Assembly (NCBI GenBank): GCA_005889135.1
Contig: VBEK01000132.1
Span: 1 to 39,101 of the forward strand
Source of the DNA: Chloroflexota bacterium
GTDB lineage: Bacteria > Chloroflexota > Dormibacteria > Dormibacterales > Dormibacteraceae
Reading direction: 5' to 3'
Length of the DNA stretch: 39,101 bases
Positions 1 to 22,603 of the stretch are shown here, piece after piece. Position numbers and translations under genes: made by a program. The notes beneath the pieces are model-generated. The model ran no database searches. It was not told the origin of the DNA and was given only the letters and a program-made list of their open reading frames with translations. Every line of letters starts with the position of its first letter. The stretch's first letter is position 1.

Positions 1-374
1 CGAGCTGCATGGCGACATGCAGAGCTGGGCAGAAATGATCCGGCCTCGTGATCAGTCGGTCGCGAGTAACAAGACTGTCGGTCCCTATCCGCCGTGGGCG
101 CAGGAGACTTGAGGAGAGTTGACCCTAGTACGAGAGGACCGGGTTGAACGGCCCGCTAGTGTACCGGTTGTCACGCCAGTGGCAGCGCCGGGTAGCCATG
201 GCCGGTTTGGATAAGCGCTGAAAGCATCTAAGTGCGAAGCCAACTCCAAGATAAGGTCTCCCACCGGGTTAACCGGGTAAGGGCCCTGCTAGACCAGCAG
301 GTTGATAGGCCGGAGGTGTAAGAGGAGCAATCCTTTGAGCTGACCGGTACTAATAGCCCGAGGGCTTGTTCACC
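1..374 (+). rRNA. rrl: 23S ribosomal RNA, 3' end (partial)
   Basis: This is the 3'-terminal part (domain VI) of 23S rRNA, cut by the window edge. The universally conserved sarcin-ricin loop AGTACGAGAGGACC is at 127-140, and the conserved 3'-end block GGTACTAATA is at 346-355. The mature end is placed near 374 by comparison with the usual end of the molecule and is accurate to a few bases. No 5S rRNA follows in the next 600 bases. Confidence 0.97.
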
Positions 375-21598: not shown

Positions 21599-22603
21599 AT
21601 GACGGACGTTTCGCCGCTGCGGTTGACGGAGTACAGCCACGGGGCCGGTTGAGCCTGCAAGCTCAGCCCGGTGGAGCTAGGGCAGGTACTCGGGGCTCTG
21701 CCCCCGATCGTCGACCCCAACGTGCTGAACAGCGCGGCCGCGCGCGACGACGCCGCGGTCTATCGCCTCGCGCCCGACCGCGCCCTGGTCGCGACCGTCG
21801 ACTTCTTCACACCCATCGTCGACGACCCCTCTGCGTACGGGGCGATCGCAGCGGCCAACGCCGTGAGCGACGTCTACGCGGTCGGGGCGCGACCGCTGTT
21901 TGCGCTCGGGATCACCGCCTTTCCGCGCGCCAGGCTCCACACCGGGCTCCTGGAGAAGATCGTCGCCGGCGGCGCGGCCAAGCTCGCCGAGGCCGAGGTC
22001 ACCGTCGTCGGGGGCCACTCGGTCGATGACGCCGAGCCGAAGTTCGGCTACGCGGTGATCGGCGAGGTGCATCCCGACCGCATGGTCGGCCACGATGGCG
22101 CGGCCGGCGGCGACGTGCTGTTCCTGACCAAACCGCTTGGCAGTGGCCTGGCGGCCACGGCCATCAAGCGCGGACTCTGCCCGCCAGCGCTAGAGGCGGC
22201 GGCGATCGCGGTCATGACGATGCTCAACCGCGATGCTTCAGAGGCGATGCTCGAGGCGGGTGCAACCGCGGCCACCGACGTCACCGGCTACGGCCTGATC
22301 GGCCACCTCGCCAACCTCCGCGGAGGCGCCGACATCGACTTTGCCAGCGTCCCGTTCCTCCAGGGCGTCAGCGGCCTTGCCGAGCGCGACCTGTTTCCGG
22401 ACGGCAGCCGTCGCAACCATTCCGCCTACCGCGACCGCGTCCAGTGGGGCGGGCTGGGCGAGACCGAGCAGCTGATGCTGTGCGACGCGCAGACAAGCGG
22501 CGGTCTCCTGGTCGCGATCCCGCAGGAGCGCGCAAAGAGCTTCCGCCAGGGGGAGAGAATCGGCGTCATGCGCGAAGACGGCGTGATCCGCATCCGAAGA
22601 TGA
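21599..22603 (+). CDS. selD: selenide, water dikinase SelD (selenoprotein, UGA-Sec at codon 18)
   Basis: SelD makes selenophosphate from selenide and ATP, the selenium donor for selenocysteine. The start ATG 21599 gives MTDVSPLRLTEYSHGAG, then an in-frame TGA (21650-21652), then ACKLSP. This is exactly the family's active-site motif YSHGAG(C/U)xCK, with selenocysteine as the catalytic residue and the essential Lys three residues on. Reading through the TGA gives 334 residues, the normal length. Downstream motifs are intact: RDDAAVY (~44), VATVDFFTPIVDDP (~63-76), IAAANAVSDVYAVGARP, GGHSVDDAEPKFGYAVIG and the ATDVTGYGLIGHL segment. A hairpin directly after the TGA fits a bacterial SECIS. Ordinary gene callers would truncate it to start at GTG 21671. 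The stop overlaps rsmD (ATGA). Confidence 0.92.
21650..21685 (+). promoter_or_regulatory. bacterial SECIS-like hairpin after UGA-Sec
   Basis: Following the TGA, CTGC (21655-21658) pairs with GCAG (21682-21685), and AGCTC (21660-21664) pairs with GAGCT (21674-21678), with a small internal loop. The 9-nt apical loop AGCCCGGTG has a G in its second position and a GGT (21670-21672), features expected of SelB-recognised bSECIS elements. The apical loop begins 13 nt after the UGA. Confidence 0.6.

Follow-up and report, generated by a model that had tools for sequence, protein, structure and literature searches.

The bSECIS element has been studied best in the formate dehydrogenase genes of E. coli. 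Among prokaryotic selenoprotein families SelD ranks second by how widely it occurs (PMC13188914); FdhA and SelD have been described as the most widespread selenoproteins, and changes from selenocysteine (Sec) to Cys can leave SECIS-like remnants (PMC1794560). Bacterial Sec-containing SelDs, e.g., those tabulated in the latter work, have in common (i) a Sec encoded by TGA at the catalytic Cys position of the N-terminal loop, (ii) a downstream hairpin, and (iii) SelA, SelB, and tRNA-Sec in the same genome. The bSECIS model quoted in PMC13188914 comprises a 4–16 bp stem and a 3–9 nt loop with G at the first two loop positions, the loop being located 16–37 nt from the TGA.

The DNA stretch analyzed here (the window, 39,101 nt) lies on contig C160 of a fragmented draft genome (2.95 Mb in 221 contigs, 94.7% complete). 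Its SelD shows no substantial difference from the bacterial Sec-SelDs listed above; it is 334 amino acids long and its gene is situated between a divergent LigB-domain gene and rsmD-like and coaD-like genes. The essentials are already known, and the gene adds one member and is an ordinary one, since SelD is a well-described selenoprotein and Sec-to-Cys swaps have been published. Among the papers searched, none was found that links “Dormibacter” to selenocysteine.

The selD Gene and Its Reading Frame

The gene for selenide, water dikinase (selenophosphate synthetase), selD, was delimited at positions 21599..22603 of the forward strand using the translation with TGA read as U, the NCBIfam selD models, and the protein structure PDB 3u0o. 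The frame runs from the ATG at 21599 to the stop TGA at 22601–22603 and encodes 334 amino acids, of which U is residue 18. The in-frame TGA at 21650..21652 (+) lies in the motif YSHGAG-U-ACK, and its identification as a Sec codon draws on the TGA and TGC counts in the family and on the Sec machinery of the genome, both described below. The sequence-only reading had placed this TGA exactly at the catalytic position of SelD, which the alignment with 3u0o (E = 2e-69) bore out: it runs through the Sec position (YSHGAG-U-ACK vs. YSHGAGCGCK), with the TGA in frame and opposite the Cys of 3u0o, and the conserved Lys of the N-terminal loop follows. The 3u0o protein, a Cys form of the same family, shares the N-terminal motif as well as DDAAVY, DFF.PIVD, and TDVTG.G, and differs by having Cys for Sec. 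Identity to named relatives was 74–82%, these being metagenome assemblies labeled Chloroflexi or Candidatus Dormibacteraeota.

A late start at 21671 had been predicted for standard gene calling, and the mechanical ORF list indeed gives a shortened ORF at 21671..22603 (+) with a GTG start and 310 amino acids. With the NCBIfam model TIGR00476 (cut-off 125) the read-through protein scored 339.6 bits vs. 308.7 bits without the N-terminus. With a second selD model, NF002098 (cut-off 299), the read-through protein passed at 316.4 and the ORF starting at 21671 failed at 276.4.

The ordinary UGA stop lies approximately 950 nt downstream of the recoded UGA within the same gene and overlaps the ATG of an rsmD-like methyltransferase gene (ATGA, 22600–22603), which is followed by a coaD-like gene. 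Upstream, the divergent gene with a LigB domain (PF02900; 20757–21578, reverse strand) starts approximately 20 nt from the selD start, and no sigma-70-like promoter was found between the two genes. The short gap and a TACTAAT ahead of the ATG may mean that the selD mRNA is leaderless. At the beginning of the window, positions 1–373 (+) match Rfam RF02541 (280.7 bits) and form the 3′ end of a gene for bacterial 23S rRNA.

Sec Machinery and Other Selenoprotein Genes of the Genome

The sequence-only reading had further implied a working SelA/SelB/SelC system, and all of the corresponding genes were recovered from the window's own genome. One tRNA-Sec gene (96 nt, anticodon TCA) scored above the Rfam cut-off (71.2 bits vs. 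47). The selA (504.6 bits) and selB (358.3 bits) genes are adjacent on contig C100. SelA, SelB, and tRNA-Sec, expected of a genome with selenoprotein genes, are all encoded. The encoded SelB carries wing_2 and wing_3 winged-helix domains; such domains of SelB bind the SECIS hairpin. By ORF sequence, the tRNA-Sec gene lies downstream of thioredoxin-like and glycosylase-like ORFs and is distant from both selAB and selD. The combined absence of selB and tRNA-Sec, or a TGC or TGT in place of the TGA, had been named as grounds for abandoning the Sec reading; selB, tRNA-Sec, and the TGA are present. A match to SelU/MnmH (tRNA selenouridine) was not found in the draft genome, and selenophosphate therefore appears to serve Sec only.

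Genes of the families searched were translated with stops read through, and the resulting selenoprotein count is thus a lower limit. A TGA at the expected Sec position was identified in FdhA on contig C138 (CNRT-U-HAPSV) and in an FdnG-type formate dehydrogenase on contig C189 (ARV-U-HGPTV). An AhpD-like protein on contig C183 has a CxxU motif (NKCRY-U-LSSH), and in-frame TGA codons were also found in a peroxiredoxin (Prx) on contig C93 (FTGG-U-RTEL) and in a Prx-like protein on contig C39 (GDW-U-PYC). The family search for a SelW-like (Rdx) protein yielded none in this genome. At least five genes besides selD, and at least six with it, accordingly carry TGA at known Sec positions among the families searched, in line with the earlier expectation of further selenoproteins.

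Sec and Cys Forms of SelD in Related Genomes

For comparison 60 related genomes were used, including members of the window's own family (f1) and of another family in its class (f3). Of the 30 f1 loci read, 28 have TGA as the catalytic codon of SelD and two, in genomes G011 and G022, have TGC; all 12 f3 loci read have TGA. This recurrence of TGA at the same codon excludes chance or a sequencing error, and the two f1 genes provide homologs with Cys aligned to the in-frame TGA, a hallmark of selenoprotein genes. In the SelD tree the Cys forms of G011 and G022 stand apart from each other, each nested among Sec forms. This points to at least two independent changes between Sec and Cys in f1 and, because the Cys forms nest among Sec forms, favors the direction from Sec to Cys. 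Both genomes retain SelB, tRNA-Sec, and a Sec-containing FdhA, and the SelD swap was therefore not part of losing Sec.

Two genomes of the class, G037 (98% complete) and G047, had no match to SelD or tRNA-Sec and no SelB above the cut-off; G057 had a weak off-family SelD match only, with no tRNA-Sec and no SelB above the cut-off. In G009 (86% complete) and G028 (59%) a Sec-containing SelD was present and SelB and tRNA-Sec were not found, which we put down to missing sequence.

The Hairpin Downstream of the TGA and Synonymous Constraint

A candidate bSECIS hairpin, GCCCGGU-GGA-GCU(A)GGGC, was located at 21666..21683 (+). It agrees with the rules of PMC13188914 in having a GGA loop that starts at +21 and a stem of 7 bp with one bulge, formed by an A at 21679 on the 3′ side. 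The stem pairs were kept in 27–29 of the 29 Sec sequences, the only breaks being those of pair 18–33 in two of them. Stem changes at columns 21, 23, and 27 remain paired (G-U to A-U, U-G to C-G or U-A); two-sided compensatory changes were not seen within f1. In both Cys genes (G011 and G022) the loop begins with C, not G. The minimum-energy hairpin, with a GGU loop at +18, was set aside in favor of this one; its pairs were broken at 15–31 in three, at 13–33 in two, and at 18–27 in one of the 29 Sec sequences. In the SelD genes of f3 a strong hairpin, UGGCUCA-GGUCU-UGAGCCA or a variant of it, has its GGU-containing loop at +33/34, and the bSECIS element is hence placed differently in the two families.

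The folding energy of the 51-nt fold did not differ significantly from that of shuffled sequences (z = 0.01) or from a synonymous-codon recoding null (p = 0.3–0.4). The bSECIS-like hairpin proposed in the sequence-only reading was thus upheld by its geometry and conservation and gained nothing from folding energy: stability alone proves nothing for a bSECIS, and it is conservation that does the work.

Pairwise synonymous difference rates revealed a constrained stretch from codon -1 through codon +11 relative to the TGA (21647..21685, +). Among Sec genes the rate was 0.00 at codon -1, 0.10 for codons +1 to +11, and 0.43 for the rest of the gene, i.e., synonymous freedom in codons +1 to +11 is approximately four times lower than elsewhere in selD. 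The windows around the TGA had the lowest synonymous difference of 297 windows, and the constraint stops at codon 12, near the end of the hairpin (21683). In the constrained stretch the comparison of Cys with Sec genes gives 0.33–0.37, about twice the value among Sec genes themselves (0.18), and the synonymous sites around the codon are relaxed in both Cys versions. It is selection, not energy, that shows an RNA element after the TGA.

The Codon Preceding the TGA

In the Sec genes found in the window's genome the codon preceding the TGA ends in T in all five genes with a synonymous choice: GGT in selD (21647–21649), ACT in fdhA, GTT in the FdnG-type gene, TAT in the AhpD-like gene, and GGT in the Prx gene. 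In the sixth, the Prx-like gene, this codon encodes Trp and offers no synonymous choice. T-ending codons make up 5.2% of the 9698 codons counted in this genome, and ordinary TGA stops are preceded by T in 3 of 11 cases. Multiplying the shares of the five codons, a calculation made after the pattern had been seen, gives 1.1e-6. Codon -1 is GGT in 28/28 f1 and 12/12 f3 Sec-SelDs, and GGG and GGC in the two Cys genes. A general rule of U before every Sec UGA was rejected, as SelDs from other phyla use GGC (13), GGT (10), and GGG (6). That recoding in this lineage depends, besides the bSECIS, also on a U immediately 5′ of the UGA (UUGA) is a tentative suggestion, which these codon counts make possible and which we consider rather doubtful.

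Interpretation of the In-Frame TGA

The selD TGA almost certainly encodes the active-site selenocysteine, which would make SelD itself a selenoprotein (estimated probability approximately 0.97), and none of the analyses made yielded evidence contradicting this. Sec insertion, SelB binding, and catalysis as such we infer from established knowledge of the family. In the proposed mechanism SelB would bring Sec-tRNA(Sec) to the ribosome and bind the hairpin at 21666–21683 just past the TGA, whereupon the TGA at 21650 would be read as selenocysteine and not as a stop. Located in SelD's mobile N-terminal loop, the Sec would help to make selenophosphate from selenide and ATP, from which SelA would produce Sec-tRNA(Sec), and this would in turn supply FdhA, the second formate dehydrogenase, the peroxiredoxins, the AhpD-like protein, and SelD itself.

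If the TGA instead terminated translation, whether as a genuine stop or as the result of a nonsense mutation, a shorter SelD lacking the catalytic loop would be made from the GTG at 21671, and the ORF that standard calling yields there does still score as selD (308.7 bits). We regard this as very improbable, because the codons 5′ of the TGA specify the N-terminus conserved in SelD (YSHGAG), the TGA occupies the identical codon in 28/30 f1 SelDs, and a decayed gene would be expected to lose both its frame and the synonymous constraint. Readthrough of the TGA by another route, i.e., by a near-cognate tRNA or through reassignment of TGA in this genome, is less probable still: of 28 genes checked, 11 end in TGA as a normal stop codon, the set of selA, selB, and tRNA-Sec is complete, and the remaining TGA codons identified stand in place of a catalytic Cys at positions where Sec is known to occur, although some readthrough by another tRNA would be compatible with data of this kind. 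The genome being a draft assembly, a sequencing or assembly error for TGC or TGT has to be weighed as well. It is the least probable explanation, given that the TGA recurs in separate assemblies of 27 other f1 members and 12 f3 members and that the true Cys versions (G011 and G022) are also altered at the surrounding synonymous sites.

Implications

Automatic annotation would misplace the start of this selD gene, and the Sec reading corrects that start. Judging from the genes identified, six or more proteins of this uncultured soil-type lineage probably contain selenocysteine. Natural controls for the RNA needs around the Sec codon are provided by the two Sec-to-Cys swaps within the same lineage, in which the Sec machinery was kept.
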